A stretch of DNA of 64,000 nt from an uncultured Prevotellaceae bacterium (lineage in GTDB: Bacteria; Bacteroidota; Bacteroidia; Bacteroidales; Bacteroidaceae), in assembly GCA_947167515.1 (NCBI GenBank), contig CAMVIM010000001.1:124001-188000 (forward strand). Direction: 5' to 3'. The stretch's first letter is position 1. Each line of letters opens with the position of its first letter. The position numbers and the translations under genes were made by a program. Of the stretch, positions 6,553 to 61,921 are shown in pieces. Below the pieces are notes generated by a model, which did not search any database, was not told where the DNA came from, and saw only the letters and a list, made by a program, of their open reading frames with translations.

Positions 6553-6621
6553 CAACCTCAGTGCCACTTCTTTCTCAACCTCACCGCCACTTCTTTCTCT
6601 GCCTCACCGTCGTTTCCATCT
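6553..6621. repeat. Tandem array, 23-bp units (locus A, first array)
   Basis: Three head-to-tail 23-bp units at 6553-6575, 6576-6598 and 6599-6621, the first two beginning CAACCTCA. A more diverged copy starts near 6508. The array joins directly to the 21-bp array. The interval 6384-6951 holds no convincing gene. Confidence 0.8.
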
Positions 6622-6625
6622 TAGA

Positions 6626-6707
6626 TTCATACTATGAATTATACAATCCATAGAATGAATTACATAATTCATAGAAAGGATTATACAATTCATAGAATGG
6701 ATTTAAG
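6626..6707. repeat. Tandem array, 21-bp palindromic units (locus A, second array)
   Basis: Four units at 6626-6646, 6647-6667, 6668-6688 and 6689-6707 (last one truncated), built on TTCATAG/CTATGAA. The first half-site junction reads ATTCATA-C-TATGAAT, a perfect palindrome. The same array recurs at 20585-20666. A hairpin (arms GCTTTTGC 6738-6745 and GCAAAAGC 6757-6764) lies just beyond it. Confidence 0.85.
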
Positions 6708-6789
6708 CTCCGAACGAGTATCTTCTGCAAGAAGAAAGCTTTTGCGCCATCTGGAGGCAAAAGCACACCGAAGAAACTCTTTCCAATGG

Positions 6790-6797
6790 CAAAGATA
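6790..6797 (-). promoter_or_regulatory. Putative -7 box reading into repeat locus A
   Basis: Minus-strand TATCTTTG. Transcription from it would run through the hairpin 6738-6764 and then the 21-bp and 23-bp arrays. An identical box lies at the same relative place in locus B (20759-20766). Confidence 0.45.
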
Positions 6798-6913
6798 CGA
6801 ATAACTTGCCGAATTGCCCAATGAAGTGTGTTTTATTTGACTGAAATGGGCATATCAAGACGCACGGAACGAGATTTTAATATATAAAATGTGTAAGTTT
6901 CACGAAAAATCCG

Positions 6914-6921
6914 TAAATTTG
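6914..6921 (+). promoter_or_regulatory. -7 promoter box for the UPF0371 gene
   Basis: TAAATTTG, 30 bp upstream of the ATG at 6952. Confidence 0.65.
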
Positions 6922-6951
6922 CAACCGAAAAAAGAAAGCGGAAAAAAGATT

Positions 6952-8415
6952 ATGAAGATAGGATTTGACAACGAGAAATACCTGAAGATTCAGTCGGAAC
7001 ACATCAGGGAAAGAATCGCAACGTTTGACGGGAAACTGTATCTGGAGTTGGGCGGAAAACTGTTCGACGACCACCACGCTTCACGTGTGCTGCCTGGCTT
7101 CAAACCCGACTCCAAACTGCGTATGTTCGCCCAGTTGCGTGACAGCTTGGAAATTGTGATTGTGATTAGTGCGGAGGACATTGAGCAGAACAAGATGAGG
7201 GCTGATCTCGGCATTACCTATGATGAAGATGCCTTGCGCCTTCGCGATGAGTTTATGAGCCGTGGCTTCATGGTAGGTTCAGTGGTCATCACCCACTACG
7301 ATGGTCAGCGCGCTGCCGACCAGTTCCGTCACCGCCTCGAACGTATGGGCATCAAGTCCTATTTCCACTATCTGATTGACGGCTACCCTCACAATGTGGA
7401 ACTGATAGCCTCAGACGATGGCTTTGGTAAAAATGATTACGTGGAGACAACCCGTCCGTTGGTCATCGTGACAGCTCCCGGTCCTGGCAGCGGCAAGATG
7501 GCAGTGTGTCTGAGCCAACTCTATGGTGAGAACAAACGGGGCATCCGTGCTGGCTATGCCAAGTTTGAAACTTTCCCGGTGTGGAACCTGCCGCTGAAGC
7601 ACCCCGTCAACATCGCTTATGAGGCTGCAACGGCCGACTTGAACGATGTGAACATGATTGACCCCTTCCACTTCGACGCCTACGGCAAAGTGGCCATCAA
7701 CTATAACCGTGACATCGAAATTTTCCCTGTTCTCAACGCGCTCTTCGAAGGCATCTACGGCGAGAACCCCTATAAGTCACCGACCGATATGGGCGTGAAC
7801 ATGGTGGGCTTCTGCATCAGTGACGACGAGGTGTGCAGTCAAGCCTCGAAGGATGAGATTATCCGTCGCTACTACGATGCCACTAACAAGCTGGCTGACG
7901 GGGCTTGCAACGAGAACGAGGTGAGTAAGATTCAGCTGTTGTTCAATCAAGCGAAAATCACGGCTACTGACCGAAAAGTGGCTGTGGCTGCCAATGAACG
8001 GAAGGTGCAGACAGGAGTGCATTGTGCCGCAATGGAAATGGAGGATGGTACCATCATCACCTCCAAAACGGGTGACCTGCTGGGCTGCTGTGCTGCCCTG
8101 CTGCTCAACGTGATGAAGCACTTGGCAGGCATTGGTCATGAAGTCAAACTCATTCCGCAGAGCATGATTGAGCCTATTCAGAAGACGAAGACCGAATACT
8201 TGGGCGGTCATAACCCCCGTCTCCACACCGACGAGGTGCTGGTGGCCATCTCGGTGCTCTCGCAGCACGACGAGAACTGCCGTCGTGCCCTGGAGCAGTT
8301 GCCCAAACTGCGGGGCTGCCAGATGCACAGTACCGTCATGTTGGGCGAGGTGGATAGAAAGATACTGAAGAAATTGGGTTGCGGCCTCACTTGCGACCCT
8401 GTGAGAAAGAAGTAA
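6952..8415 (+). CDS. UPF0371/DUF1846 family protein
   Basis: 487 aa starting 'MKIGFDNEKYLKIQSEHI', the usual family start. An in-frame extension upstream to 6889 overlaps the promoter and is ignored. The protein has the family hallmarks 'GKLFDDHHASRVLPGF' near residue 37, 'VTAPGPGSGKMAVCLSQLY', a glycine-rich P-loop-like segment, and 'GVHCAAMEMEDGTIITSK'. Structures of family members are known, but I know of no settled function; nucleotide or phosphate binding is plausible from the Gly-rich loop. It is a soluble, cytoplasmic, single-gene unit with its own promoter and a strong terminator (8453-8505). Confidence 0.88.
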   Translation: MKIGFDNEKYLKIQSEHIRERIATFDGKLYLELGGKLFDDHHASRVLPGFKPDSKLRMFAQLRDSLEIVIVISAEDIEQNKMRADLGITYDEDALRLRDEFMSRGFMVGSVVITHYDGQRAADQFRHRLERMGIKSYFHYLIDGYPHNVELIASDDGFGKNDYVETTRPLVIVTAPGPGSGKMAVCLSQLYGENKRGIRAGYAKFETFPVWNLPLKHPVNIAYEAATADLNDVNMIDPFHFDAYGKVAINYNRDIEIFPVLNALFEGIYGENPYKSPTDMGVNMVGFCISDDEVCSQASKDEIIRRYYDATNKLADGACNENEVSKIQLLFNQAKITATDRKVAVAANERKVQTGVHCAAMEMEDGTIITSKTGDLLGCCAALLLNVMKHLAGIGHEVKLIPQSMIEPIQKTKTEYLGGHNPRLHTDEVLVAISVLSQHDENCRRALEQLPKLRGCQMHSTVMLGEVDRKILKKLGCGLTCDPVRKK

Positions 8416-8452
8416 AGTAGGGATTCTCACAGATAGACACAGGAACCAATAA

Positions 8453-8505
8453 AAACGGAAAAGCGGGAGAACTACCACGATGGCACTCCTCCCGCTTTTC
8501 CGTTT
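8453..8505. terminator. Bidirectional terminator hairpin
   Basis: Perfect 17-bp stem (8453-8469 with 8489-8505, arm AAACGGAAAAGCGGGAG) between convergent genes. Read on the minus strand the stem is followed by a T-rich run, and on the plus strand by a short T run. Confidence 0.85.
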
Positions 8506-8518
8506 GTCAACATGTATG

Positions 8519-9238
8519 CTACTCTTTGTTCTTGAAGGCTTCCTTGTTGGCCTTGATTTGTTCCTCTGCCTGCTTGTAGGCATCGCTTTGCCTGTCCATG
8601 ATGACAATCTTGGCCAGCTTTGCCCATTGGGCTGCGTTGTAGTCATCGGGACTGATGAAGAACCCCGCTCCGAACTTCTTGCCTTCCTTAATGGGGTAGT
8701 CGCTGTACGAGACACTTCTGCCTCCCACGGCGATGGCATTGCCATCTGTGTCGAAGGCTACGGGGATGTACATCAGCACGGGTGTGTCATTCGAAGCCTC
8801 AGCCGTGAATACAAAGCTTGCTCCCGCCTCGCGCTTGTCATCGAGTGTGAAGTTCTTTTCTATTGTTGCAGGGATGCCCTCAGCCAGTTCGGTCGGAATC
8901 TCCTTGCCTTCCAGTGTCTTTGCAATGGTGGGCAAGGTCTCTTTCTTGAACTTGGTGGCATTGCCCTGATGCAGATACTCCGTCCAGAATTCCGTTGCCT
9001 TGTCGGGGTCGCTCTGCTTTAGTTCCTCGTACTTGGCATTTGCAGCGGCTTCAGAAGCTGCATATTCGGCCACTGCCTTTGGCAGTTCGCCCAAGATTCC
9101 GTCTGTTGGGATGCTGCTGACCGCATCGCTGTCTCCATCGCCATTGCCCTCACCGTTATTGCCTCCGCATGCAGAGAAGGTTAAGCCAGCCATGAGTACC
9201 GTAGCACCCAGAATGAGAAAATTCTTCATTGTTTTCAT
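8519..9238 (-). CDS. Lipoprotein of unknown function
   Basis: 239 aa. The lipoprotein signal ends at 'FSAC' (C24) and is followed by a flexible Gly/Asn/Asp linker ('GGNNGEGNGDGDSDAV'). The mature part is mostly helical and charged. Its second half reads 'KREAGASFVFTAEASNDTPVLMYIPVAFDTDGNAIAVGGRSVSY', then 'IKEGKKFGAGFFISPDDYNAAQWAKLAKIVIMDR', a beta-rich domain I do not recognise. An ATG three codons later (9229) is an equally good start. It has its own promoter (9319-9326). A Ca-binding or stress lipoprotein is possible, but nothing in the sequence proves it. Confidence 0.75.
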   Translation of the reverse strand: MKTMKNFLILGATVLMAGLTFSACGGNNGEGNGDGDSDAVSSIPTDGILGELPKAVAEYAASEAAANAKYEELKQSDPDKATEFWTEYLHQGNATKFKKETLPTIAKTLEGKEIPTELAEGIPATIEKNFTLDDKREAGASFVFTAEASNDTPVLMYIPVAFDTDGNAIAVGGRSVSYSDYPIKEGKKFGAGFFISPDDYNAAQWAKLAKIVIMDRQSDAYKQAEEQIKANKEAFKNKE

Positions 9239-9318
9239 GTTCTAATTTTTTTTTAAGTGGTTAATAAATGAATTATGTGTAGGTGTGATTCCTATTGTCT
9301 CGAATCAGGTTCACTCTG

Positions 9319-9326
9319 CAAATATA
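9319..9326 (-). promoter_or_regulatory. -7 promoter box for the lipoprotein gene
   Basis: Minus-strand TATATTTG, 80 bp upstream of the start codon, giving a leader of roughly 70 nt. Confidence 0.6.
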
Positions 9327-9495
9327 GGAAGAATAGGCACTCCGTGTGATAGATGTATGTGATGATGATGTTTCAACTATCCAAAACATCTCCGTCAACC
9401 TGACAAAAGGCGTTCAAAGCGTAAATCCAATAGTTCAAATCGTAAAAAAACAAGAACGTTGCAGGTGAAAATGGCTGATTGTGCAGGATTTTCTT

Positions 9496-9503
9496 TACCT
9501 TTG
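9496..9503 (+). promoter_or_regulatory. -7 promoter box for the AraC-type regulator
   Basis: TACCTTTG ends only 8 bp before the ATG at 9512, so the predicted transcript would start at or within a few bases of the start codon (leaderless or nearly so). Confidence 0.6.
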
Positions 9504-9511
9504 TGGCTAAT

Positions 9512-10621
9512 ATGAATATTTCTGCATTTCTGATAGGTGTAGCAACGGCGTTCTTCGCTATCTTTTCCTTGCACATTCTTTTCTGGAATCGGCACCGCAC
9601 CCGTTTCCAGACCGTGTTAGGCATTATTATGGCTGTGTGGGCCGTGTGGTGTGCCAAAGACCTGATTACCACTTTTCCTGATATGTATCGCGAGGATGTC
9701 ATGCGATGGATCTTCATCATCGACGGTTGGTCGGCACTCTCCTATACGGTGTTCATCCATGAGGTGGTCATGCCTGGCTGGACCACATGGCGACGGCTTG
9801 CACTGTCAGCCTTGCCTTTTGGAGCATTCACGGCACTCTATGCCGGATGGCCATACACGGAGGTTATCTATGCCTATGCCGCTTTCCTCTGGTGCTACGG
9901 ATGGACCATCGTCATTGTGGGGTGGGTCAAGATGCAGCGCTATCTCCGCTATGTGCGTCGCGAATACTCCAACATCGACCGGGTGGATGTGCTGTGGTTG
10001 CGCCCCGTGTTCTTTTTTGCCATTGTGGGACAACTCGCATGGCTCTTCACCTCGCTTTATGCCTCAGTCGTGGCCGATATCTTCTATTATGTCGGCGTCA
10101 TCCTTCTCTGGTTGCTTGTGCTGCACTATAGTTGGAATTTCCGTCCCTTGAAGATTGAGGACGAATCGGCTTCTGAGACAGGCTCTGAGGACGGTGTGCC
10201 ACCTCTTGAAGAGCCTTTGGTGGCTAACGGTGATTCCGAAGGCGTGGGTGTGACATCTATACCTCCGCTTCCTCGCGGTAAACTGGAAAGGGTGGTGGAG
10301 GAACAGAAGCTCTATCTGCATCCTAATCTGACGCTGCGAGAACTGGCAGAGGCTTTGAACACGAACAGAACCTACGTGAGTAACTATCTGAGTCAAGTGG
10401 TGGGGCAAACGTTCTATGACTATATCAATCAATTGCGCATCAAACTCGCTGCCATTCCTCTTGTCACTCAGCACCCGGAATACACCTTTGAGTATATTGC
10501 CAGCCAAAGTGGATTCGCCTCGATGTCCACTTTCCGCCGTGCTTTTGCCAAATATACAGGCAAGACCCCCAGCCAGTATGTGGCGGAGGTCTGTCAAGAA
10601 CGTACCCCTCGGCTACGATAA
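9512..10621 (+). CDS. Membrane-anchored AraC-family transcriptional regulator
   Basis: 369 aa from ATG 9512 ('MNISAFLIGVATAFFAIF'). The first ~200 residues form about six or seven hydrophobic helices. A Pro/Glu-rich linker follows ('SASETGSEDGVPPLEE'), then a classic AraC double helix-turn-helix at about 260-360. The first HTH is 'LTLRELAEALNTNRTYVSNYLSQ'; the second is 'YTFEYIASQSGFASMSTFRRAFAKYTGKTPSQY'. The layout suggests a signal sensed in or at the membrane controls a DNA-binding domain on the cytoplasmic face. Targets are unknown; the neighbouring lipoprotein and HAD genes are candidates. The 3' end overlaps an unusual set of competing stems (10601-10670). Confidence 0.85.
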   Translation: MNISAFLIGVATAFFAIFSLHILFWNRHRTRFQTVLGIIMAVWAVWCAKDLITTFPDMYREDVMRWIFIIDGWSALSYTVFIHEVVMPGWTTWRRLALSALPFGAFTALYAGWPYTEVIYAYAAFLWCYGWTIVIVGWVKMQRYLRYVRREYSNIDRVDVLWLRPVFFFAIVGQLAWLFTSLYASVVADIFYYVGVILLWLLVLHYSWNFRPLKIEDESASETGSEDGVPPLEEPLVANGDSEGVGVTSIPPLPRGKLERVVEEQKLYLHPNLTLRELAEALNTNRTYVSNYLSQVVGQTFYDYINQLRIKLAAIPLVTQHPEYTFEYIASQSGFASMSTFRRAFAKYTGKTPSQYVAEVCQERTPRLR

Positions 10622-10670
10622 GGCGTACCCTTGGGTACGGCATACTGTATCCGAGGGGTACGCCTTATCG
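10601..10670 (+). promoter_or_regulatory. Mutually exclusive hairpins at the 3' end of the AraC gene
   Basis: Three inverted repeats overlap. CGTACCCCTCGG (10601-10612) pairs perfectly with 10651-10662. CGATAAGGCGTACCC (10616-10630) pairs perfectly with 10656-10670. CGTACCC (10624-10630) can also pair locally with 10633-10639. The 12-bp and 15-bp stems share 10656-10662, so only one can form at a time. The stop codon (10619-10621) lies inside. There is no U-run, so this is not a standard terminator. Confidence 0.6.
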
Positions 10671-10702
10671 AATAAAGGAGAATCGGTGGAGGCGTGGTGA
10701 CT

Positions 10703-11452
10703 TCAAGATGTTGCCAGCACCTGCGTGAGCTTCTCGTAGGTCATGCCCTCAAAACTGTCGAGGACGTAGTTGCATCGGTCTTTGATTTCTTCGCGTGTGT
10801 GACCAGTAGGTAGCCCGATGGTGAAGATGCCCGATGCCATGCCTGCTTGAAGACCTGTGTAGGCATCTTCAAACACCACGCACTCGTCGATGTCGGCACC
10901 AAACACTTTGGCCCCTTGCAGATAGCAGTCAGGGGCAGGCTTGGAGGCGGTGAAGTCTTCGGCAGTGAGCACACGGTCGAAAATGTTGTCGAAGTCGGGA
11001 ATCTGCCGCTTCACGCTTAGCATCTTTGGGATGTTGGAACTGGTCACAACGGCGCATTTCACACCGTTGCGTTTCAGATCGTTCAGAAAGTCGAGTGCGC
11101 CAGGATAGAAAGCATACTTCATTTGTGCCTCGTAGGCATTCAGTCCTTCTGTGATCTCTTCTTGCCATTGCGGGTCGGGAAAGTAGGTGTCGAAGATTTG
11201 GGTGAGGGTAGTGCCCTTGATGAGAAATTCGAGCCTTGGCACGTCGGGACGGTACTTTCGTGCGGTGGCTCCCCAGAAGACGGTGTATTGGTCTTCTGTA
11301 TCGACCAATGTGCCGTCAAGGTCGAAGAGTGCCACCTTGAGTTTGCGTCGGCGAGGGATATTTCTGTCACCCTTCACAAACAGTTCTCCCCAAGGCATTG
11401 CAGTCTTCTCATCTTCAATGTCTTCGTTGCGTTTTGTCCAAAATGTTGCCAT
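10703..11452 (-). CDS. HAD-superfamily phosphatase (beta-phosphoglucomutase-like)
   Basis: 249 aa from ATG 11452; an in-frame extension upstream spans the promoter and is ignored. A charged N-terminal extension of about 38 residues precedes HAD motif I 'ALFDLDGTLVDTE' (D44 nucleophile, D46 acid/base). Motif II is 'VVTSSN' (T137/S138), motif III is K171 in 'ASKPAPDCY', and motif IV is 'VFEDAYTG' (E195, D196). The helical cap sits between motifs I and II, as in the HAD-IA/beta-PGM group. Likely substrates are sugar phosphates or other small phosphates; the exact one cannot be read from the sequence. It is transcribed divergently from the nitroreductase gene. Confidence 0.88.
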   Translation of the reverse strand: MATFWTKRNEDIEDEKTAMPWGELFVKGDRNIPRRRKLKVALFDLDGTLVDTEDQYTVFWGATARKYRPDVPRLEFLIKGTTLTQIFDTYFPDPQWQEEITEGLNAYEAQMKYAFYPGALDFLNDLKRNGVKCAVVTSSNIPKMLSVKRQIPDFDNIFDRVLTAEDFTASKPAPDCYLQGAKVFGADIDECVVFEDAYTGLQAGMASGIFTIGLPTGHTREEIKDRCNYVLDSFEGMTYEKLTQVLATS

Positions 11453-11473
11453 GATTTTTTCATTTTTCTGATG

Positions 11474-11481: not shown

Positions 11482-11503
11482 GTCTTTTCTTGTGAATTTT
11501 GTC

Positions 11504-12417: not shown

Positions 12418-13950
12418 ATGGAGTTGGGAAATTTTGTCTCTCAGACCGAGTGGCTCGGTCTCACACTTGGTGCATGGATAACCATTGTGGTTATTCTCGG
12501 TATGTTTGCCACTTTGATTGTGACAAAAGTAAAGGCCTGGGTGGCTTTCTTTGCTGCCACGATGCTGCTCTTCCTGTCGGGGGTGCTCTCGCCAGAAGAT
12601 GCTTTTGCTGGCTTCAGTAGTTCCAGCGTGGTGGTGGTGATGATTCTTTTTGTGGTCATAGCGGGACTCACCTATACGGGCGTCTTGCAGTGGATTGCAA
12701 AATATCTGATGGGTACGCCGAAGAGCATCTCTGGTGCGATCGTGCGCGTGATGGCACCAGCGGCTTTGCTCAGTGCTTTCCTCAGCAACACAGCCGTTGT
12801 CGCACTCTTCATCAGTGTGGTCAAGACGTGGAGCCGCAAACTGGGCATCGCCCCTTCAAAACTGTTGATTCCTTTGAGTTACGCTTCGGGAATGGGCGGT
12901 ATCTGTACGTTGATTGGTACGCCGCCCAACCTGATTATTTCGGGTATGTACAGGGAGCAGACAGGTGTGGAACTCAGTATATTTGCAACTACGGGTGTGG
13001 GTCTGTTTTGTCTGGTTGTGGGTATTCTCGGTATGCTGGCTATGCAGAAGTTGCTGCCTGTTCGCCAGACTCCCGACGAGAAGATGAACGTGATGGAAGC
13101 CACTATTGAACTGAAAGTGCCTGCACGAAGCCATCTGGTAGGGCAACCTGTGGCTGCCTTTAGATTGGCAGAATGGAAAGATTTGGAACTCAAGGGCATT
13201 GTGGATTTCGATGGCGAGGTGAATGGTCATGTTTCAGACGAAGACTTCCTTTTGGGTGGTGACACCCTTGTCTTCACGGGTTCGCGTGAAAAGATACTTA
13301 CTCTTGCCAAACGTTATGGTTTGGAGTGTTCTCCTGCCGATGTGGAATTCGAGCCTAATCGTGGCAAGAAAACCCTCATGGCTGGACTCATCATGATTGG
13401 CATGGTGGCATTGTCGGGCTTTGGCGTAATGACCTTGTTGCAGGCTGCTGTGGTGGCAGCTATCTTGATGATTATCTTCCGTTGCTGTAGCTCAGATCAA
13501 GCTTTCCATAGCATCGATTGGCAAATCATCACGATTTTTGCATGTAGTGTGGCATTGGGTTCTTCCATCGAGAAAACAGGCTTGGCCGAGATGATAACCC
13601 GTGGTCTGCTCTCCATCTGTGGCACCGATCCTCTGGTGGTGCTCATCGTCCTTTGTTTTGCTGGTACTTTCATGACTGAATTTATTAGTAATACGGCTTG
13701 TGGTGCCATGTTCTATCCCATTGCCATGTCGGCAGCAGCTGCTACGGGGGCTAATCCTCTCACGTTTGCCATTGCCCTTATGATTGCCGTGAGTTCCAGT
13801 TTTGCCACCCCCATTGGCTCTCCCACTCACATGCTGGTCTATATTCCCGGTGGCTACAAGTTTACGGATTTCACGAAGATTGGTTTCTGGATGAACCTCA
13901 TCATCCTTGCAGCCAATATCTTCATCACCACGCTTGTCTATCCTCTGTAG
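12418..13950 (+). CDS. SLC13/DASS-type sodium:anion symporter with one RCK_C domain
   Basis: 510 aa from ATG 12418; an upstream in-frame extension lies in the repeat element and is ignored. There are about ten membrane helices in two inverted halves. Each half carries the sodium/substrate SNT motif: S123-N124-T125 in 'LSNTAVVALF' and S424-N425-T426 in 'ISNTACGAMFYP'. A single RCK_C (TrkA-C) regulatory domain of about 75 residues sits between the halves (about 225-300). The family imports di/tricarboxylates, sulfate or related anions with Na+. Substrate cannot be assigned; sulfate or succinate are both plausible. Confidence 0.87.
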   Translation: MELGNFVSQTEWLGLTLGAWITIVVILGMFATLIVTKVKAWVAFFAATMLLFLSGVLSPEDAFAGFSSSSVVVVMILFVVIAGLTYTGVLQWIAKYLMGTPKSISGAIVRVMAPAALLSAFLSNTAVVALFISVVKTWSRKLGIAPSKLLIPLSYASGMGGICTLIGTPPNLIISGMYREQTGVELSIFATTGVGLFCLVVGILGMLAMQKLLPVRQTPDEKMNVMEATIELKVPARSHLVGQPVAAFRLAEWKDLELKGIVDFDGEVNGHVSDEDFLLGGDTLVFTGSREKILTLAKRYGLECSPADVEFEPNRGKKTLMAGLIMIGMVALSGFGVMTLLQAAVVAAILMIIFRCCSSDQAFHSIDWQIITIFACSVALGSSIEKTGLAEMITRGLLSICGTDPLVVLIVLCFAGTFMTEFISNTACGAMFYPIAMSAAAATGANPLTFAIALMIAVSSSFATPIGSPTHMLVYIPGGYKFTDFTKIGFWMNLIILAANIFITTLVYPL

Positions 13951-20406: not shown

Positions 20407-20544
20407 GGAGTGTTCTCCATCGCCCTTGTGGAGTGTCCACTATCGCCCTTGTGGAGTGTCCACCATCGCCCTTGTGCCGGATCCACCATCGCCCTTGTGC
20501 CGTATCCACCATTGCCCTTGTGCCGTATCCACCATTGACTCTAC
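20407..20544. repeat. Tandem array, six 23-bp units (locus B, first array)
   Basis: Six exact-length units start at 20407, 20430, 20453, 20476, 20499 and 20522; most share CCA(C/T)(C/T)AT(C/T)GCCCTTGT. The first three begin GGAGTG and the last three GCCG. The interval 20296-20999 has no supportable gene. A 120-codon minus-strand reading frame across it simply translates the repeats. Confidence 0.9.
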
Positions 20545-20584
20545 GCAACTGCCTCTTCTGACTCAGTGCCGTTTCCACTTTAGA

Positions 20585-20666
20585 TTCATAGTATGGATTA
20601 TATAATTCATAGTATGGATTACACAATTCATAGAAAGAATTATACAATTCATAGAATGAATTTAAG
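20585..20666. repeat. Tandem array, 21-bp palindromic units (locus B, second array)
   Basis: Four units at 20585, 20606, 20627 and 20648 (last truncated at TTTAAG), with the same sequence family and unit count as locus A 6626-6707. A long-loop hairpin follows, with arms GTGCTTTCGG (20676-20685) and CCGAAAGCAC (20727-20736). Confidence 0.88.
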
Positions 20667-42883: not shown

Positions 42884-42991
42884 TTTGCTACATGCCCTGT
42901 GTAGCAGTTGCTACACCGCCAGTGTAGCATTTACTACACCGCCACTGTAGCAGTTGCTACACTGGCAGTGTAGCGTTTGTTACAACGGCTC
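42884..42991. repeat. Tandem palindromic array, 23-bp units (TGTAGCA...TGCTACA)
   Basis: Four full units start at 42900, 42923, 42946 and 42969, and a partial one at 42884. Each holds a near-perfect palindrome such as TGTAGCAGTTGCTACA plus a 7-nt spacer (CCGCCAG type). The array sits between the divergent thiD and luxS promoters. The remainder of 42606-43116 shows no gene. Confidence 0.9.
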
Positions 42992-43228: not shown

Positions 43229-43262
43229 GAAAAGCGTGAGTCGTGATGATTCGCGCTTTTTC
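43229..43262 (+). terminator. Terminator-like hairpin in the luxS leader
   Basis: GAAAAGCGTGA pairs with TTCGCGCTTTTTC and is followed by a modest T-rich stretch. It lies about 50 nt into the leader and 70 nt before the start codon, so it could attenuate luxS. Confidence 0.45.
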
Positions 43263-43332
43263 ACTTTCTAACGCCAAAAACATCTGGGCGTCGCAAAAAA
43301 TATTAACATCATATCACACTAAACAAAACATT

Positions 43333-43827
43333 ATGGAAGTAATAAAAAGTTTTACGATTGACCACACCTGCTTGAAGCCGGGTATTTATGTTTCGCGCAT
43401 GGATAAAGGCTTCACCACTTTCGACCTGCGCATCACGGAACCGAACAAGGAGCCTGCTGTTGCCCCTGCTGCCATTCACAGCATCGAGCACCTGATGGCC
43501 ACTTGGTTCCGCAACTCGGAGGCGAAGGAGGACGTGGTGTATGTGGGGCCGATGGGGTGCCTCACGGGTATGTACATCATCATGATGGGTGCTTACACAG
43601 TGGAGGATATGAGGCGTCTGACCATCGAGTGTCTGGAGTGGATTCTCACCCAAGACAAGGTGCCTGCCACCGAGCCTCAAACCTGCGGCAACTATTTGCT
43701 GCACGACCTCCCCATGTGCAAGTGGGAGTGTGCCCGCTATCTTGACCGTCTGAAGAACGATTTCCACTGCGAATACACTCAGTTGCAAATCACTCTCGAC
43801 GACGGAAAGGTTTTTGCCGATGCGTGA
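43333..43827 (+). CDS. luxS: S-ribosylhomocysteine lyase (AI-2 synthase)
   Basis: 164 aa from ATG 43333; an in-frame upstream extension contains the leader hairpin and is ignored. Metal ligands are H49 and H53 ('HSIEHLMATW') and C118 ('PQTCGNYLLH'); the catalytic cysteine is C76 ('GPMGCLTGMY'). It splits S-ribosylhomocysteine into homocysteine and DPD, the AI-2 precursor, recycling the SAM by-product. It is single-gene, with a long leader that carries a hairpin, and lies close to metA on the divergent strand. Confidence 0.95.
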   Translation: MEVIKSFTIDHTCLKPGIYVSRMDKGFTTFDLRITEPNKEPAVAPAAIHSIEHLMATWFRNSEAKEDVVYVGPMGCLTGMYIIMMGAYTVEDMRRLTIECLEWILTQDKVPATEPQTCGNYLLHDLPMCKWECARYLDRLKNDFHCEYTQLQITLDDGKVFADA

Positions 43828-50185: not shown

Positions 50186-50293
50186 TTGACCAAGTTACAT
50201 CTTTTTCTTGGTCAAGCAACATCTTATCTTGGCCAAGTGATTTCTTTCTCTTGGCCAAGTTGTTTCTTTTCTTGGTTAAGTGGCATTGATTTC
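50186..50293. repeat. Tandem palindromic array, 21-22-bp units (TTGGCCAA)
   Basis: Five units start at 50186, 50208, 50229, 50251 and 50272, each beginning TTG(A/G)(C/T)(C/T)AAG, followed by a pyrimidine-rich filler. The last unit stops 1 bp before the tex stop codon. It fills the whole gap between convergent genes. Confidence 0.88.
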
Positions 50294-50294: not shown

Positions 50295-52466
50295 TTATGC
50301 CTCCATTCCCTTCATGCTCAGCTGCATCCTGCCGCGTTGCAGGTCGATGCCGATGACGCGCACCGTCACGTGCTGATGCAGTTGCACCTCTTCTGAAGGG
50401 TCTTTCACAAAGTGGTTGGCCAATTCGCTGATGTGGACAAGTCCCTTCGTGTGGACACCCACATCGACAAAACAGCCGAAGTTGGTGATATTGGTGATGA
50501 TGCCAGGCAGCACCATCCCCACTTGCACATCCTCCAGTTCTTTCACGTCTTTGGAGAACTCAAACACGGTCAGTTGTTGGCGTGGGTCACGCCCTGGCTT
50601 GTCCAACTCCTGCATGATGTCTTGCAGGGTGGGAAGACCCACCTTGTCGGACACATAGCGTTGAATGTCCACCTTTTCGCGCAGCTCCTTTTTCGCCATC
50701 AGTTCAGCCACCGTGCAATGCTGGTCTTTCGCCATCTTCTCCACAATGGGGTAACTTTCAGGATGGACGGCACTGTTGTCGAGGGGCTGTTTCCCACCGC
50801 TCACACGCAGGAATCCAGCTGCCTGCTCAAAGGCTTTAGGACCTAACTTTGGCACCTTCATGAGCTCTTTGCGCGAGGTGAAAGCACCTTTTTCTGCACG
50901 ATAAGTCACAATGTTTTGGGCAATGGCAGGGCCGAGTCCTGAAATGTAGGTGAGCAGGTGCTTGCTGGCTGTATTCACGTTCACACCCACTTTGTTCACA
51001 CACAGTTCCACCGTCTGGTCGAGCGAGTGCTTCAGTTCCTTCTGGTCAACGTCCTTCTGATATTGTCCCACGCCGATGCTGCTGGGGTCAATCTTCACCA
51101 GTTCTGCCAGCGGATCCATCAGTCGGCGACCAATGCTCACCGCGCCACGCACCGTCACATCATAGTCGGGGAACTCTTCGCGAGCCACTTTCGATGCCGA
51201 ATAGATGCTGGCACCGTCTTCGCTCACCACAAAAATCTGTATCTCTTTGGGCAATCCCAATCCACGCACAAACTCCTCCGTTTCGCGGCTGGCGGTGCCG
51301 TTACCGATGGAGATGGCTTCAATCTTGTATTGCTTGACGAGTGTCCATAACTTGGAAGCCGCTGCCTGTCGCTCGTTCTTGGGAGGATGGGGATAAATCG
51401 CCTCGTTGTGCAGGAGGTTCCCTTCGGCATCGAGACACACCACCTTGCATCCTGTGCGGAACCCTGGGTCAAGTGCCAGCACTCGCTTTTGACCCAAGGG
51501 AGCCGCCATGAGCAGTTGTTCCAGATTCTTCACGAAGATGCGGATGGCTTCCTTGTCCGCCTGTTCTTTGGAAAGGTTGGCAAACTCTGTTTCGATGCTG
51601 GGTTTGAGCAGTCGCTTGAAGCCATCCTCAATGGCATCCCACACCAGTTCGGCGCTTCTGCTGGAGTTTCTCAGGAACTGACGGTCGAGCCGGTCGAGGC
51701 ATCGCTCATCATCGCCGTTGATGCTTACACGCAGCACACCCTCCGCTTCGCCGCGTCGCATGGCCAACAGACGGTGGGAAGCACAACGGGCGAGTTTTTC
51801 GCTGAATTCAAAGTAGTCGCGAAACTTTTGTGCCTTCTCTTCCCATTCCTTTTCCTCCTCAGCCGTCTTGGTCTTAGGCTTCACTTTCGTGGAGGTGATG
51901 ACGGCATCCTTCTTGAAGTTGAACCTCACGATGTTGCGGGCTTCTTCGTTCTCACTCACCTGTTCGGCGATGATGTCCTGTGCTCCCTGAATGGCCTCTT
52001 CAGCTGTGTTCACGCCTTTCTCTTTACTGATGAACTCACGCACCTTCTTATCGACATCAGCGTTCGGATTCTGCAACATCAAGAAGGTGGCCAGTGGTTC
52101 CAACCCCTTCTGCCGAGCCACTTCTGCACGAGTCTTCCGCTTGGGCTTGTAGGGCAGATAGATGTCTTCCAGTTCGGTGCTGTCCCATGAACCTTCTATG
52201 CGCTTCCGCAGTTCGGGCGTCAGTTTTCCCTGTTCCTCTATCGTCTTCAGGATGGTTTCCTTCCGCTTCTCCAGTTCCTTGAACTTCTCCAACTGGTCGC
52301 TCACGTTGGCCACCTGCACCTCGTCCAGCGCACCTGTCACTTCCTTCCTGTATCGGCTGATGAAGGGGATGGTGCAACCCTCCTCAAGCAATCCCACGGT
52401 GCCCTGCACCTGTCGTTCGCCAATGCCTGTCGTCTTGGCGATAAGTTTTACAAATTGATTGTCCAT
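50295..52466 (-). CDS. tex: Tex-family S1 RNA-binding protein
   Basis: 723 aa from ATG 52466; an upstream in-frame extension includes the -7 box and is ignored. It has an N-terminal Tex helical domain ('TTGIGERQVQGTVGLLEEGCTIPFISRYRKE' in parts) and a YqgF/RNase H-like domain ('VLALDPGFRTGCKVVCLD'). Tandem helix-hairpin-helix follows ('ISGLGPAIAQNIVTYRAEKGAF', 'VPKLGPKAFEQAAGFLRV'), then a C-terminal S1 domain (about 640-720, 'GMVLPGIITNITNFGCFVDVGV'). Tex binds nucleic acids and is linked to transcription and stress tolerance. It is full length with its own promoter. Confidence 0.95.
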   Translation of the reverse strand: MDNQFVKLIAKTTGIGERQVQGTVGLLEEGCTIPFISRYRKEVTGALDEVQVANVSDQLEKFKELEKRKETILKTIEEQGKLTPELRKRIEGSWDSTELEDIYLPYKPKRKTRAEVARQKGLEPLATFLMLQNPNADVDKKVREFISKEKGVNTAEEAIQGAQDIIAEQVSENEEARNIVRFNFKKDAVITSTKVKPKTKTAEEEKEWEEKAQKFRDYFEFSEKLARCASHRLLAMRRGEAEGVLRVSINGDDERCLDRLDRQFLRNSSRSAELVWDAIEDGFKRLLKPSIETEFANLSKEQADKEAIRIFVKNLEQLLMAAPLGQKRVLALDPGFRTGCKVVCLDAEGNLLHNEAIYPHPPKNERQAAASKLWTLVKQYKIEAISIGNGTASRETEEFVRGLGLPKEIQIFVVSEDGASIYSASKVAREEFPDYDVTVRGAVSIGRRLMDPLAELVKIDPSSIGVGQYQKDVDQKELKHSLDQTVELCVNKVGVNVNTASKHLLTYISGLGPAIAQNIVTYRAEKGAFTSRKELMKVPKLGPKAFEQAAGFLRVSGGKQPLDNSAVHPESYPIVEKMAKDQHCTVAELMAKKELREKVDIQRYVSDKVGLPTLQDIMQELDKPGRDPRQQLTVFEFSKDVKELEDVQVGMVLPGIITNITNFGCFVDVGVHTKGLVHISELANHFVKDPSEEVQLHQHVTVRVIGIDLQRGRMQLSMKGMEA

Positions 52467-52491
52467 AGTGTTCTTGACTTCCTTTTCTTTG

Positions 52492-52499
52492 CAAAGGTA
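52492..52499 (-). promoter_or_regulatory. -7 promoter box for tex
   Basis: Minus-strand TACCTTTG, 25 bp upstream of the ATG. Confidence 0.65.
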
Positions 52500-52620
52500 G
52501 GACAAAATGGAGAGAGAACCAAATGATTGGTCTTTTTTGTGAAGAAAAAACAGCACAGAAAGGCTTGTTTCTGCCACGCCTTCGATTGGTTAAAATGTAC
52601 ACACCCATAGCCTCAAAATC

Positions 52621-52683
52621 GGTGTGAGTCACACCTGCATGGGCGGTGTGACTCACACCTATGTGTGGGGTGTGAGTCACACC
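52621..52683. repeat. Tandem palindromic array, 24-bp units (GGTGTGAGTCACACC)
   Basis: Three perfect 15-bp palindromes at 52621, 52645 and 52669, spaced exactly 24 bp, separated by 9-nt spacers. A closely matching array lies at 61859-61921. Apart from this array, the tex promoter and a terminator, 52467-52822 is empty. Confidence 0.92.
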
Positions 52684-52714
52684 GATATAAAGGCAGTTGG
52701 AATTGGTCATTTTG

Positions 52715-52756
52715 TATGAAAAAACCGTCCCACTCCGCGTGGCGAAGTGGGACGGT
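52715..52756 (-). terminator. Terminator of the propeller-yhcH operon
   Basis: On the minus strand, stem ACCGTCCCACT...AGTGGGACGGT (with an inner GCG/CGC pair) followed by six T. It lies 67 bp after the YhcH stop codon. Confidence 0.85.
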
Positions 52757-56571: not shown

Positions 56572-56592
56572 CATCAAATTTCGTGAAAAGAT

Positions 56593-57399: not shown

Positions 57400-57448
57400 T
57401 GGGCATCTCACCATCATACTATCACGAAAAGAATCAAAAATAACCAAT

Positions 57449-58738: not shown

Positions 58739-58748
58739 GGAGTAGTTG

Positions 58749-58784
58749 GAAGTGAAAAGTGAAAAACTCTTCACTTTTCACTTC
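58749..58784. terminator. Perfect 15-bp hairpin between convergent genes
   Basis: GAAGTGAAAAGTGAA (58749-58763) pairs with its exact complement (58770-58784) around a 6-nt loop. It overlaps the GH53 stop codon. It likely ends both transcripts and belongs to the GTGAAAAGTG repeat family also seen at 46.5 and 61.2 kb. Confidence 0.6.
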
Positions 58785-60043
58785 ACCCGATATTTCTTTT
58801 TTCCCTGAATGTAAATGCCGGGTGTGCTCATGGAGCGCACCCGTTGTCCGTTAAGGTTGTAGATGGGAGCATCTGCTTGGGGTGCGATGTCCGTTCTGAT
58901 GCCTTCGATGCCTACGGTTTCTTTCTCCGTGAGGAAGTTCTTGAGCGATGTCAGTCCTGTTTTTGCCTTGTGGGAATTGTTGTCCCAAAGGCCACGATTG
59001 AGCCATGCAGTTTGAGTCTTGGTGTCCGTGCTGCCGCTTCCGTTCTCTTCGGGATACCAGTAGTAGAGTCCTGTCACGTTGTTGTGTGCGGCAAGGGCGG
59101 TGCAGAGGTCTTCGATGAACTTCTTTTGCCCTGCTTGAGTAGCAGGCCAAGTACTGGTGGTGTTGATGACACTGGAGTCATCGGTGGGGAAATTGCTGTA
59201 AAAGTAAGCCGTTTCCACAATTTGCACAGGCTTGTCGGGAAAGGTGGTGGAAAGGGTGTTGAGGGTGTTCGACAAGGTGTTGAGGTCGCCGTGCCAGAAG
59301 GGGTAGTAGGAGAGTCCGATGATGTCGTAATCGACTTGGTTGTTCTTCATGTTGGTGAAGAAATTCTTGCAGGCATTGGCATCCTTGGTACGCTCGATGT
59401 GGAGGATGATTTTGGCATCGGGTGTGATTTCACGCACGGCTTTGGCTCCTGCCTTCAGAAATTGGTAGAACCGTGTCCAGTAGTTGCTGTTGTTGTAGAG
59501 CTTGTCATTTGCCACTCCTTCGCGCCAAAGCATGCCGTAGCTGATTTCGTTGCCTATCTGCACAAAGTCGGGGGTGGCACCGTTGGCTTTCAGATGTTCC
59601 AGACAGCGCTTGGTGTAGGCATAGACGGAATCGGCCATTTCGGCATTGGTCTTCACTTGGCTCCAAAGGCTGGGGATGGTTTGATGGGAAGGGTCTGCCC
59701 ATGTGTCGCTGTAGTGGAAATCGACCATGAGGTTCAATTCGGCATCCTTGATGCGTTTGCCCAAGGCGGTCACGTAGTTGAGGTCTTGCACCAGCGTGGG
59801 GTCTTGTGCAGTGGCTTCAGGTGTGACGAAAAGGCGCACACGCATGGAGTTCATTTTCACCTGCGAGTTCTTCAGGTAGTTCAGTACGTTGGGAATCTTT
59901 ACTCCAGAGTTGCTGTAATAAGTTGCTCCTGCCTTTTCATATTGTGGCAGCATGGAAATGTCGGCACCAAGATTGTAGGCATTCTGAGCCTGTGTGCCAC
60001 ACATGGTAGCACACGCCAAGATGGTTAATAAGGTCTTTTTCAT
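58778..60043 (-). CDS. Secreted GH53 endo-beta-1,4-galactanase
   Basis: 421 aa, signal peptide 1-19 ('MCGTQAQ'). GH53 barrel with 'LGADISMLPQYEKAG' near the start. The acid/base is E166 in 'VQIGNEISYGMLW' and the nucleophile E278 in 'QIVETAYFY'. 'VDFHYSDTWADPSHQ' (108-120 region) is also typical. It cuts beta-1,4-galactan side chains of pectin. The C-terminus carries the tail 'APIYNLNGQRV...GIYIQGKKKY', like the GH27 enzyme. No -7 box is visible in the 95-bp gap after the glycosyltransferase gene, so it may be read from that promoter. Confidence 0.94.
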   Translation of the reverse strand: MKKTLLTILACATMCGTQAQNAYNLGADISMLPQYEKAGATYYSNSGVKIPNVLNYLKNSQVKMNSMRVRLFVTPEATAQDPTLVQDLNYVTALGKRIKDAELNLMVDFHYSDTWADPSHQTIPSLWSQVKTNAEMADSVYAYTKRCLEHLKANGATPDFVQIGNEISYGMLWREGVANDKLYNNSNYWTRFYQFLKAGAKAVREITPDAKIILHIERTKDANACKNFFTNMKNNQVDYDIIGLSYYPFWHGDLNTLSNTLNTLSTTFPDKPVQIVETAYFYSNFPTDDSSVINTTSTWPATQAGQKKFIEDLCTALAAHNNVTGLYYWYPEENGSGSTDTKTQTAWLNRGLWDNNSHKAKTGLTSLKNFLTEKETVGIEGIRTDIAPQADAPIYNLNGQRVRSMSTPGIYIQGKKKYRVK

Positions 60044-60138
60044 TATGTTAGGATAAGATAATCAGTCGAGAAAAGGTGTGGAAAAAGAGGATGGAAAGGC
60101 GGCCTCTGTTCTTACCGCCTTACCAGTTTGCCGATGCT

Positions 60139-61140
60139 TTACCGCCTTGCCCTCTTGCTGAGCGAAATCCGCAGGGCAGTCTTCCATGCGGTGGTGCTGC
60201 CCAACAAGGTGCAGAAACGCAGCCAGTTGGCGACGCATCGCTGTGAGAATGTCGGATTGAAGTTCTCGCCGATGAATACCGTGAGTGCCTTCGATGCCAT
60301 CTTGTACTTCTTGCAGCGTCCGTTCATCTTCTCGCGTTGCAACTGTCCGAGCAGGATGTTCGTGCGCAGGTAGAGCGGATAGATGAGCAGGTCGAGGTGA
60401 GGATAGAGGCAGGAGAGATGCTGTCCATGATAGTGAGAGAGGGGTTGCAGGATGGACGAGTGCAGGGCTGTCATCACGGCTGAAAGGGTGCGAATCAACT
60501 CCTTGTAGTGCATCGAGAGGCTGCCTTCAGGGCTGTCCTCCTTGCGGGGAGTGAGTGTGTGGAAAGCCTTTTCGGTGAACCACAGGATGCGTGGCTGATG
60601 AAGCATGAGGCGGATGCCGAGTTCCCAATCCTCCCATGTGCGGCAGGCTGTGTTCCATTCGCCGATGGCATGAAGGTAATCCGTGCGGAAAATGAGGGAG
60701 GGAGTGGTGAAGGCACTGGCAATCAGCTGCACACGGGGGTCTTCCGACGGGATGAACGTGCGCACATGCTCCTTGCCATTGGCATTTTCCTTCACTGGCA
60801 ACGCCACCACATCATAGCCTTCGGCATCAATCTGGCCGAAGGTTGACATGAAATTGTAGTCGAAGTGGTTGTCGCCATCGAAAAAATACACCCATTCCGT
60901 CTTGCACGACTTCAGACCTTTGTTGCGGGCGGCAGCGGCTCCTGGAAATGTCTCCCTGAGCAGAGTGACATTGGGGCGGCTCTTGATATATTGCTCACAG
61001 AACTGATAGGTGCCGTCTGTGCTTTCGTTGTCCACAATGATGACTTCCTTAGGCGGAATACCCGACTTCAGGATGCTGTCGAGCGTCTTTCCGATGTGCT
61101 CGCGTTGGTCTTTTACGGGTATGATGACTGTTATTTCCAT
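60139..61140 (-). CDS. Family 2 glycosyltransferase
   Basis: 333 aa from ATG 61140; a hydrophobic in-frame extension upstream overlaps the -7 box and is ignored. The GT-A fold starts 'MEITVIIPVKDQREHIGKTL'. The nucleotide-binding 'IIVDNESTDGT', the DxD-type 'YFFDGDNHFD' and the acceptor-side 'TWEDWELGIRLML' follow. There is no membrane segment. It probably transfers a sugar to a lipid-linked or surface glycan in the cytoplasm; donor and acceptor are unknown. The C-terminal 25 residues are very basic. Confidence 0.88.
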   Translation of the reverse strand: MEITVIIPVKDQREHIGKTLDSILKSGIPPKEVIIVDNESTDGTYQFCEQYIKSRPNVTLLRETFPGAAAARNKGLKSCKTEWVYFFDGDNHFDYNFMSTFGQIDAEGYDVVALPVKENANGKEHVRTFIPSEDPRVQLIASAFTTPSLIFRTDYLHAIGEWNTACRTWEDWELGIRLMLHQPRILWFTEKAFHTLTPRKEDSPEGSLSMHYKELIRTLSAVMTALHSSILQPLSHYHGQHLSCLYPHLDLLIYPLYLRTNILLGQLQREKMNGRCKKYKMASKALTVFIGENFNPTFSQRCVANWLRFCTLLGSTTAWKTALRISLSKRARR

Positions 61141-61163
61141 GATGTTAAGTAGTAAAAACAATG

Positions 61164-61171
61164 CAAAGGTA
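61164..61171 (-). promoter_or_regulatory. -7 promoter box for the glycosyltransferase
   Basis: Minus-strand TACCTTTG, 23 bp upstream of the ATG at 61140. Confidence 0.65.
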
Positions 61172-61179
61172 ATAAAACA

Positions 61180-61221
61180 AGTGAAAAGTGAAAAAAGAAA
61201 AGTGAAAAAAAATGAAAAGTG
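61180..61221. repeat. GTGAAAA direct repeats
   Basis: Four irregular copies of (A)GTGAAAA in 42 bp. They are related in sequence to the arms of the hairpins at 46.5 and 58.75 kb. Confidence 0.5.
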
Positions 61222-61274
61222 ACTCAAATTATTGGAAAATATTTTTCAAGTGCGTCTGAAAAGCGAAAAATCCC

Positions 61275-61282
61275 TAACTTTG
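61275..61282 (+). promoter_or_regulatory. -7 promoter box for the Met-sulfoxide reductase
   Basis: TAACTTTG; the start codon options lie 22 and 49 bp downstream. Confidence 0.6.
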
Positions 61283-61331
61283 CAAAATAAGTAAACGAAT
61301 TGACATGGGATTGTCAATCCTCAAAATTTGT

Positions 61332-61817
61332 ATGGCTGAAGAATTCATCATATCATCTGGCTCGAAGGAAGAGAAGTACCGAGAGCTGCTTCCGCAAATC
61401 AAGGCGGTGGTGGAGGGCGAGAGCGACCTCATCGCCAACATGGCCAACGTGGCCAGCATGCTCCACGAGACGTTTGGCTTCTGGTGGACAGGCTTTTATC
61501 GCGTTCCCCCCCCACAGGATGGACAGGAGGACTTTCTCATTCTTGGCCCCTTTCAAGGTCCCCTTGCCTGCACTCGCATCAAAAAGGGAAAGGGTGTGTG
61601 TGGAACGGCTTGGGAACGGGGCGAGACGGTGATTGTGCCTGATGTGGATGCCTTTCCTGGTCACATCGCCTGCTCCAGCCTTAGCCGCAGCGAAATCGTC
61701 GTGCCCATCAAGAAGGATGGGGAAGTGGTGGCTGTGCTTGACATCGACAGCAAGGAACTCGCCACCTTCGACGAGGTGGACAAGAAATACTTGGAGGAAG
61801 TGGCGGAAGTGCTGTGA
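61332..61817 (+). CDS. Free methionine-(R)-sulfoxide reductase (GAF domain)
   Basis: 161 aa from ATG 61332 ('MAEEFIISSGSKEEKY'); ATG 61305, in frame, would add nine residues. It is a single GAF domain with 'GFWWTGFYRV' and 'ILGPFQGPLACTRIKKGKGVCGTAW' in two parts. The three redox cysteines C80, C90 and C114 ('HIACSSLSRSEIVVPI') are all present. The enzyme reduces free Met-(R)-sulfoxide using thioredoxin-type donors, protecting against oxidants. It is single-gene and convergent with the BlaR1-like gene. Confidence 0.92.
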   Translation: MAEEFIISSGSKEEKYRELLPQIKAVVEGESDLIANMANVASMLHETFGFWWTGFYRVPPPQDGQEDFLILGPFQGPLACTRIKKGKGVCGTAWERGETVIVPDVDAFPGHIACSSLSRSEIVVPIKKDGEVVAVLDIDSKELATFDEVDKKYLEEVAEVL

Positions 61818-61858
61818 AGAAAGCACTCTGCAAACACCCTTTTTGACACCTAAAAATT

Positions 61859-61921
61859 GGTGTGACTCACACCTATGGTAGGGGTGTGACTCAGACCTAT
61901 GGTAGGGGTGTGACTCACACC
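61859..61921. repeat. Tandem palindromic array, 24-bp units (GGTGTGACTCACACC)
   Basis: Three 15-bp palindromes at 61859, 61883 and 61907 spaced exactly 24 bp; the middle one has a single change (CAGACC). It is the same family, count and period as 52621-52683, and both arrays have CGAT beyond the last unit. It sits between convergent genes. Confidence 0.92.

Follow-up and report, generated by a model that had tools for sequence, protein, structure and literature searches.

Dispersed intergenic arrays of palindromic dyads with a 21-24 bp period and near-fixed unit number in a Prevotellaceae genome

Introduction

A 64,000-nucleotide stretch from an uncultured Prevotellaceae bacterium (assembly GCA_947167515.1, contig CAMVIM010000001.1, positions 124,001 to 188,000; hereafter the window) carries, at six places between genes, tandem arrays whose units recur every 21-24 base pairs (bp) and whose cores differ from place to place. 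An earlier note on the window proposed that these arrays either bind protein cooperatively on one face of the DNA or reflect a common amplification mechanism acting on different seeds. What are these arrays, and why do unrelated cores share nearly one period? Here we report that the arrays are real, mostly outside genes, dispersed and nearly fixed in unit number, and that the family called T24 occurs in one genus of gut Bacteroidaceae only among 150 genomes, some of its sites being inherited between species. We give an even chance to the proposal that the arrays represent several families of dispersed elements in which near-fixed sets of dyads bind protein, which spread in the manner of miniature inverted-repeat transposable elements (MITEs) and in which the core can change.

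Results

Tandem arrays with a period of 21-24 bp are far more frequent than expected by chance

The window and 19 further stretches of the same draft genome (G000; 3.68 Mb, 74 contigs, 98.85% complete), 427,179 bases in all, were scanned with Tandem Repeats Finder at a score of at least 50, and three dinucleotide-shuffled copies of these bases served as the chance baseline. The scan yielded 74 arrays of any period against a mean of 1.3 in the shuffled copies, and 35 arrays with a period of 20-25 bp against 0.67 per shuffled copy. Periods of 21, 22, 23 and 24 bp were represented by 13, 2, 12 and 8 arrays, respectively, and periods of 20, 25 and 26 bp by none. A palindromic consensus (p ≤ 0.05) was found in 15 of the 35 arrays, compared with 0 of 21 at periods of 12-19 bp and 2 of 9 at periods of 26-60 bp. 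The arrays are real and far above chance. According to a rough dicodon gene caller, 30 of the 35 lay mostly outside called genes, though about 90% of the sample was called coding. For comparison, three stretches of Escherichia coli K-12 (150 kb; one of four stretches was left out) contained one array. The earlier note would have been undone by shuffled sequence giving similar arrays or by a lack of enrichment outside the window; the shuffles did not reproduce the arrays, and enrichment was found across the whole sample as well as in the dispersal of T24 through the genome.

The preference for this period extended to arrays classed as non-palindromic by script, a class that includes some degenerate members of the palindromic families: in G000, their periods of 21, 22, 23 and 24 bp numbered 13, 4, 21 and 13, with 2 at 25 bp and 0 at 26 bp. 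At Bacteroidales tex loci taken as outside the genus (tex identity ≤72%, 673 kb), 23 of 62 arrays had a period of 20-25 bp, and this period preference therefore seems to reach, in weaker form, beyond the genus. Among the best 80 matches to the Tex protein, the closest named records come from uncultured Bacteroidaceae of ruminants and horse.

The palindromic arrays belong to dispersed families with near-fixed unit number

The T24 family (GGTGTGA core) consists of the dyad GGTSTGASTCASACC repeated three times with a period of 24 bp and 9-bp spacers. Counting here and below without duplicate cores met twice in overlapping loci, we found 75 adjacent T24 pairs (at most 2 mismatches) and 35 three-dyad elements (at most 3 mismatches) in the whole of G000, where the pattern read backwards gave 0; a relative within the genus, G014 (draft, 83% complete), also held 35 three-dyad elements. 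A search of 150 genomes from the own genome, genus, family and order (45 in the genus, 105 outside) showed T24 in 17, namely 17/45 of the genus and 0/105 outside, and adjacent pairs ranged from 0 to 75 among the 45. The CCGAC family (T23; CCGAYRT-N5-AYRTCGG, 4-bp spacers, 23 bp) was present in 13/45 genus genomes, with 24 adjacent pairs in G000 under a looser pattern, and the CGTACCC family (6-bp spacers, 23 bp) in 14/45, with up to 170 pairs (G036). Each of these three families is high in different genomes, and they coexist in several. The T21 family (CTATGAA/ATTCAT, ATTCATnnnATGAAT-like), with four dyads at 21 bp, occupied 11 places in G000 (20 rows, both strands).

The dyads came in sets of nearly constant size. 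T24 dyads (at most 2 mismatches) in the 427-kb sample formed seven runs of three and one of two, beside eight singletons, seven of which had two mismatches and one had one. T21 dyads in this sample formed five runs of four beside 20 singletons under a loose pattern. CCGAC dyads, also under a loose pattern, formed eleven runs of three, one of four and one of two beside 55 singletons in a sample of the genus member G007, and one run of three beside 33 singletons in the G000 sample. The unit number is not absolute, since G013 has a four-unit T24 array and G011 a two-unit one.

With regard to position, the 35 T24 elements of G000 were distributed over 17 tandem, 9 divergent and 5 convergent gaps and 4 places called coding; T21 arrays lay in divergent gaps at 4/5 sampled loci. 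A terminator role was set aside because T24 arrays do not cluster where genes converge. Eight named tex loci of lower or equal kinship contained neither the T24 dyad pattern nor the TTGGCCAA pattern. A phage origin was also set aside, viral contigs giving 0 matches to the exact T24 and CGTACCC patterns, the two cores scanned there, with plasmids outside the scan.

Dyads are conserved at orthologous T24 sites while spacers drift

By both flanks, 9 of the 35 T24 sites are common to G000 and G014, while the pairs L167/L181 and L176/L196 matched on one flank, the latter being aligned through the array. We counted differences in 10 of the 11 pairs, leaving out the near-identical L176/L196. Fixed dyad positions differed at 6/360 and spacers at 76/180, and the G/C-tolerant positions 4, 8 and 12 at 30/90; the near-flank DNA of the 11 pairs was identical at proportions from 0.52 to 1.00. 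The dyads are kept, whereas the spacers have changed about as freely as the rest of the intergenic DNA, which is the pattern that an array of protein-binding dyads would leave in sequence.

Pairing between the two halves was examined at positions 4 and 12. Among 102 dyads of G000 (three with T at either position were omitted), 47 were paired, 29 and 23 had one half deviating and 3 had both (Fisher p = 0.014), so that the table runs opposite to stem covariation. In a stem, change in both halves would be favoured; the table agrees better with a dimeric protein for which one weak half is acceptable. At the inner positions of the outer arms, pairing within elements was no better than across elements, shuffles being as good in 127 of 1000 cases for G000 and 109 of 1000 for G014. 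Because the arms show no pairing covariation, protein-bound DNA dyads appear to fit T24 better than RNA hairpins.

One shared site carries different cores in different species

One T24 array of the window follows a gene for a GAF-domain protein, which we found in 37/45 genus genomes, and the locus was read in 30. An array was present in 9/30 loci and none in 21. The core was T24 in G000, G010, G011 (two units), G013, G037 and G020 (23-bp spacing), CCGAC in G007, and CGTACCC in G036 and G018; G035 kept the GAF gene and the right flank and had no array. The six T24 loci, the G007 locus and the array-free locus of G035 all contain the right-hand anchor, and a similar stretch was seen by eye in G036 and G018, where the substitution-only search did not score it. 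Thus 9/10 species apparently sharing the gap carry an array, with three cores. Genome-wide, CGTACCC pairs numbered 170 in G036 and 98 in G018, and CCGAC pairs 48 in G007; the exception was G020, with T24 at the GAF locus yet 4 T24 against 49 CGTACCC pairs in the genome. When placed on the tex tree, the core labels required two changes, which is the minimum. These cores may have come about by replacement in place, by insertion at a preferred site, or by loss of an array followed by regain. Within T24 itself, the GAF-locus array has two units in G011 and three in G010 and G013 (L310, L317 and L320 in G010, G011 and G013), that is, one 24-bp unit was lost or gained.

Array-free sites in relatives, as expected of MITEs, were seen not only in G035. 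The G014 T24 sites L153 and L189 map in G000 to far shorter gaps without a T23/T24 array.

To compare gaps more broadly, we used a contiguous G007 sample that does not contain the GAF locus and mapped G000 gaps by the stronger flank, within 450 bp, which leaves out unmapped gaps (8/21 with arrays, 42/73 without). Gaps with an array in G000 had one in G007 in 4/13 cases, each time with a different core, compared with 1/31 for gaps without (p = 0.022). This statistic replaces another scan of relatives, in which many array matches were weak A/T-rich or 46-bp arrays. The tex locus, with T24 in G000 and CCGAC in G007, was considered as a second core change and not counted as orthologous, the genes upstream of tex being different; its gap is still one of the four just given.

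Arrays of the window

The coordinates of the arrays and of related features are collected in Table 1. Tandem Repeats Finder found arrays at every one of the six places given in the earlier note, and all eight arrays there lay outside genes by the rough caller. The inventory itself needed correction: at the six places there are six palindromic arrays and two non-palindromic 23-bp companions, eight in all, and the CGTACCC-family array, in which the stop codon of an open reading frame (9479-10621) falls, had been missed. The cores do differ, as had been claimed, into four palindromic families, the two CTATGAA arrays being one family and the two GGTGTGA arrays another. Likewise, the description of the cores as mostly palindromic holds for six of the eight arrays; the companions beside the CTATGAA arrays gave p values of 1.0 and 0.63 in the palindrome test, which also missed 0.05 for the TTGGCCAA array (p = 0.30) and for one CTATGAA array (p = 0.055). 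Only for the 21-bp family does placement on one DNA face hold, because at 10.5 bp per turn periods of 23 and 24 bp rotate successive dyads by about 69 and 103 degrees, respectively, by simple arithmetic.

The genes next to the arrays are unrelated in kind (tex, GAF protein, M56 peptidase, luxS, Ldh-type enzyme, DUF1846). One T24 array lies upstream of tex (50295-52577, minus strand), and the TTGGCCAA-like array sits where a P-II-like gene and tex converge, in the gap that separates them. The other T24 array lies between the stop of the GAF-domain gene (61305-61817, plus strand), 41 bases away, and a terminator-like inverted repeat. In the G000 sequence covered, searched with one pattern each, GCTACAC arrays were found at two loci (the second at L021 5736) and TTGGCCAA arrays at one locus, with no second found.

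Table 1. Positions of arrays, arms and composite repeats in the window and at other loci
Sequence	Position	Feature	Detection
Window	6551-6609	23-bp non-palindromic companion array, CTCAACCTCACCGCCACTTCTTT x2.6, beside a T21 array	Tandem Repeats Finder
Window	6625-6703	T21 array, four ATTCATnnnATGAAT-like dyads, period 21 bp, x3.8	Tandem Repeats Finder
Window	10601-10662	CGTACCC-family array, three dyads, period ~23 bp, middle unit one base shorter	by eye
Window	20417-20535	23-bp non-palindromic companion array, CCATCGCCCTTGTGCCGTATCCA x5.2, beside a T21 array	Tandem Repeats Finder
Window	20584-20662	T21 array, four dyads, period 21 bp, x3.8	Tandem Repeats Finder
Window	42885-42974	GCTACAC..GTGTAGC array, period 23 bp, x3.9 (~four units), upstream of luxS (43243-43827 +)	
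Window	50186-50282	TTGGCCAA-like array, ~22 bp, overlapping 22- and 21-bp rows, five units by eye	
Window	52586-52620	T24 element left arm, type A frame	by eye
Window	52621-52683	T24 array, three GGTSTGASTCASACC dyads, period 24 bp x2.7, 9-bp spacers	Tandem Repeats Finder 52620-52683
Window	52684-52718	T24 element right arm, type A frame	by eye
Window	61843-61858	T24 element left arm at GAF locus	by eye
Window	61859-61921	T24 array, three dyads, period 24 bp x2.6, GAF locus	Tandem Repeats Finder
Window	61922-61936	T24 element right arm at GAF locus, GATTTTGAGGCACAG	by eye
L139	1564-2000	composite repeat	
L018	13362-13717	composite repeat (same place as L131)	
L185	222-632	composite repeat	
L196	4289-4626	composite repeat	
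L297 (G007)	12637-12836	TACATATCCTTGTA... array	
L300 (G007)	5908-6136	TACATATCCTTGTA... array	
L303 (G007)	4498-4721	TACATATCCTTGTA... array	

Frames, composite repeats and companion arrays

T24 arrays are framed by inverted arms, of which two kinds were distinguished by eye: long type A (AATTGGTCAAAATGTAC...GTAGCCTCAAAATC / GATTTTGAGGC...GGTCATTTTGTACGATT) and short type B (CTTCCACAGCCTCAAAATC / GATTTTGAGGCTGTGGAAG). Over the 35 T24 elements of G000, the inner 11 arm positions were complementary at a mean of 8.69/11 (8.77 in G014), as terminal inverted repeats would be, and the outer positions in G000 at near 3.8 of 9 and 3.4 of 10. Type B T24 and the CCGAC family are both framed, by eye, by CTTCCACAGCCTC- and GAGGCTGTGGAAG-like arms, and many CCGAC elements of G000 and G014 have type-B-like arms. 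A search with the frame for other cores gave two further pairs, which look like chance and were dropped. Inspection by eye of 33 loose matches to the frame, all from the 427-kb sample, revealed no recognisable autonomous partner.

Several other combinations of arrays were seen. A composite repeat, found at four loci (Table 1) with partial matches in L145 and L254, combines a T24 element (type A in some) and a further stretch of at least some 100 bp with a 23-bp tandem array (ACCCGTATCAACCTCGC...) and a tail common to the copies. In G007, 21-bp palindromic arrays (TACATATCCTTGTA...) are flanked by 22-23 bp non-palindromic arrays, a layout that repeats that of the window's T21 loci around a core unrelated to theirs. 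Downstream of tex at L353 (G036), two GGTGAGANTCTNACC-like dyads lie between TTCAAAACA and TATTTTGGAG, which may represent an additional type of core within a frame like that of T24. Units resembling AATTTGGCTTGAATACAA make up 23-bp arrays at L272 5892-6024, where two such arrays face each other in inverted orientation, at L291 17121-17184 (G007), and at L339 downstream of tex (G020).

The companions have a period preference of their own. Non-palindromic arrays within 200 bp of palindromic ones had a period of exactly 23 bp in 12/22 cases, compared with 32/186 of the others (p = 0.0003, three genomes). A common amplification mechanism with different seeds, the second proposal of the earlier note, is partly supported by these companions and by the 21-24 bp preference of non-palindromic arrays in general; it does not suit the main palindromic families, which are dispersed and near-fixed in unit number. 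The support thus concerns mainly the 23-bp companions.

Discussion

We propose that each element carries a near-fixed number of dyads, three at 23-24 bp or four at 21 bp, with short inverted arms framing two families (T24 and CCGAC). A putative dimeric DNA-binding protein would sit on each dyad, every dyad family having its own protein or paralogue, and the spacing of about two turns between the three or four sites would allow joint binding. The elements would spread as non-autonomous MITE-like units, and a site would then keep its array while the core type changes, through gene conversion via shared arms or through reinsertion. The bound array may serve the chromosome, in its organisation or as a domain mark, or only the element. 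Protein binding, as suggested in the earlier note, is supported in part by the conserved dyads, the drifting spacers, the near-fixed unit number and the unconserved pairing of the arms.

Several results weigh against this proposal or parts of it. Spacer identity was dropped as proof that arrays are rewritten by gene conversion, because near-flank intergenic DNA has diverged to a similar degree. The half-site table of G014 (80, 14, 8, 0) points in the same direction as that of G000, with p = 0.59. The gap test is small and uses single-flank mapping; without the tex gap it gives 3/12 vs 1/31 (p = 0.059), and for gaps of at least 250 bp 2/8 vs 0/8 (p = 0.47). At 11/14 of the G000 T23/T24 elements with a flank match in the G007 stretches, no T23/T24 array lay within 600 bp of the predicted place, although one of these 11 places is at a stretch end and one is given by a 69-bp match only; nine viewed closely included two with another 21-bp array nearby. 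A CCGAC array stood at 3/14 predicted places, namely tex, GAF and L134, the last by a weak distant match. CGTACCC arrays are without T24 arms, and independent insertion at the GAF locus is therefore possible. CCGAC arrays are strand-coherent in their G-U versus A-C deviations (26/149 in the minority, where simulation gave a mean of 44 and a minimum of 30), and either an RNA or shared ancestry of elements with an orientation could explain this. Finally, no binding protein was identified and no transposase was found, Y1_Tnp being the transposase family searched.

A host role is not needed if the arrays are purely selfish MITE-like elements whose dyads and arms are transposase sites and whose orthologous sites are old insertions or hot spots. 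The inverted arms, the dispersal with 0 to 75 adjacent T24 pairs among the genus genomes, the array-free G035 and the two G014 sites without an array in G000 all agree with this, as do the 24/35 T24 sites of G000 for which the incomplete draft of G014 showed no counterpart. We nevertheless consider it rather unlikely, since conserved dyads beside drifting spacers, as seen at the old shared sites, are not expected of idle remnants except through conversion by active copies; the 33 loose frame matches offered no autonomous partner, and no Y1_Tnp match was found in a search that covered this transposase family. If the arrays acted instead as tandem hairpins in untranslated regions, stabilising, terminating or titrating transcripts, the ability of most units to form a short hairpin, the strand coherence of CCGAC and the terminator-like repeat after the GAF-locus array would be explained. 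This RNA explanation is improbable and was set aside, although the strand coherence is still compatible with it: T24 stem positions anti-covary in G000 and the arms do not covary, the CCGAC G-U strand agrees with the gene strand in 12/19 tandem-gap cases (p = 0.36), T24 occupies gaps of all kinds, and Rfam at the gathering threshold gave one tRNA only in the window.

Ordinary operators, each array regulating its neighbour gene through a transcription factor, would also lie between genes and, like the T21 arrays at 4/5 sampled loci, in divergent gaps. It is hard to see as operators, however, arrays that occur in tandem, divergent and convergent gaps alike, next to genes of unrelated kinds, with three core families each high in different genomes and coexisting in several, and we regard this explanation as distinctly improbable. 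Still less probable, and in our opinion very nearly to be discarded as a general account, are neutral minisatellites formed by replication slippage with a preferred 21-24 bp step. Slippage would bring the same range of periods to the non-palindromic arrays, exactly 23 bp to the neighbours of palindromic ones, the period preference at tex loci outside the genus and the one-unit difference of G011; it does not yield near-fixed unit numbers, dispersed sequence families or dyad constraint. It may explain the 23-bp companions.

Returning to the proposed protein-binding elements, we tentatively suggest, as an idea that may well prove wrong, that the arrays are site-persistent: position, unit number, period and sometimes arms would last across species while the palindrome switches as a block in all units, often to the dyad family abundant in the genome. 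A recognition code of this kind would be renewed, along with the proteins that bind it, through conversion among the dispersed copies. Should the arrays prove to bind proteins, the genus has dense phased multi-site landmarks between genes that are blank in ordinary annotation; and if cores switch in place, they provide a natural series for joint change of specificity in DNA-binding proteins and their dispersed sites. The 21-24 bp range of periods common to unrelated sequences, moreover, makes the question of the origin of bacterial minisatellites directly testable.

Comparison with known systems

The arrays were compared with known classes of bacterial repeats. CRISPR arrays have unique spacers of about 30 bp between repeats, whereas the spacers here measure 4, 6 and 9 bp in the CCGAC, CGTACCC and T24 families. 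The neisserial dRS3/NIME arrays and the pneumococcal BOX elements are modular intergenic repeats of small inverted or tandem units; their sequences and layout differ from those here. SlmA and Noc have been described as nucleoid-occlusion proteins (PMC4331003, PMC4726725). Each has tens of palindromic sites dispersed over the chromosome, and the arrays resemble these in being tens of scattered sites for one protein, here putative. SlmA and Noc sites are not known to form three-site arrays with inverted arms.

Repetitive extragenic palindromic (REP) sequences and the related BIME and REPIN go with RAYT transposases (PMC3733652). They are likewise dispersed extragenic palindromes, sometimes clustered; the arrays here differ in being regular and of near-fixed number, and in a genome with 0 matches to Y1_Tnp (PF01797) at E ≤ 0.001, a family with matches in 5/14 control genomes. 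A REP/RAYT origin was set aside on this ground. A survey of prokaryote satellites reports dispersed intergenic tandem-repeat families in few prokaryotes, for example Leptospira interrogans, and describes no 21-24 bp palindromic Bacteroidales class in the parts covered (PMC6749651). Among the literature matches listed, with most subscription journals outside coverage, nothing was recognised as these arrays beyond BrickBuilt.

BrickBuilt of Porphyromonas gingivalis is the closest known system. It is a 23-nucleotide minisatellite inside a MITE, and one strain carries 19 dispersed copies; its units number 1 to 22.8 and have no spacers between them, and its ends are IS5-like, GAGACCTTTGCA (PMC4596501). 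Such ends were not found here in a comparison by eye with the table of that paper, the T24 and CCGAC elements ending in CTTCCACAGCCTC- or AATTGGTCAAAATGTAC-like arms. The arrays here also differ in having mostly three or four dyads, other arms and several core families, and in that one site carries different cores in different species. Both systems are intergenic in Bacteroidales and have dispersed copies and 23-nucleotide tandem imperfect units, and a leader and tail with inverted ends may be a further common feature; the composite repeat in particular resembles BrickBuilt in layout, from which the palindromic arrays themselves differ.

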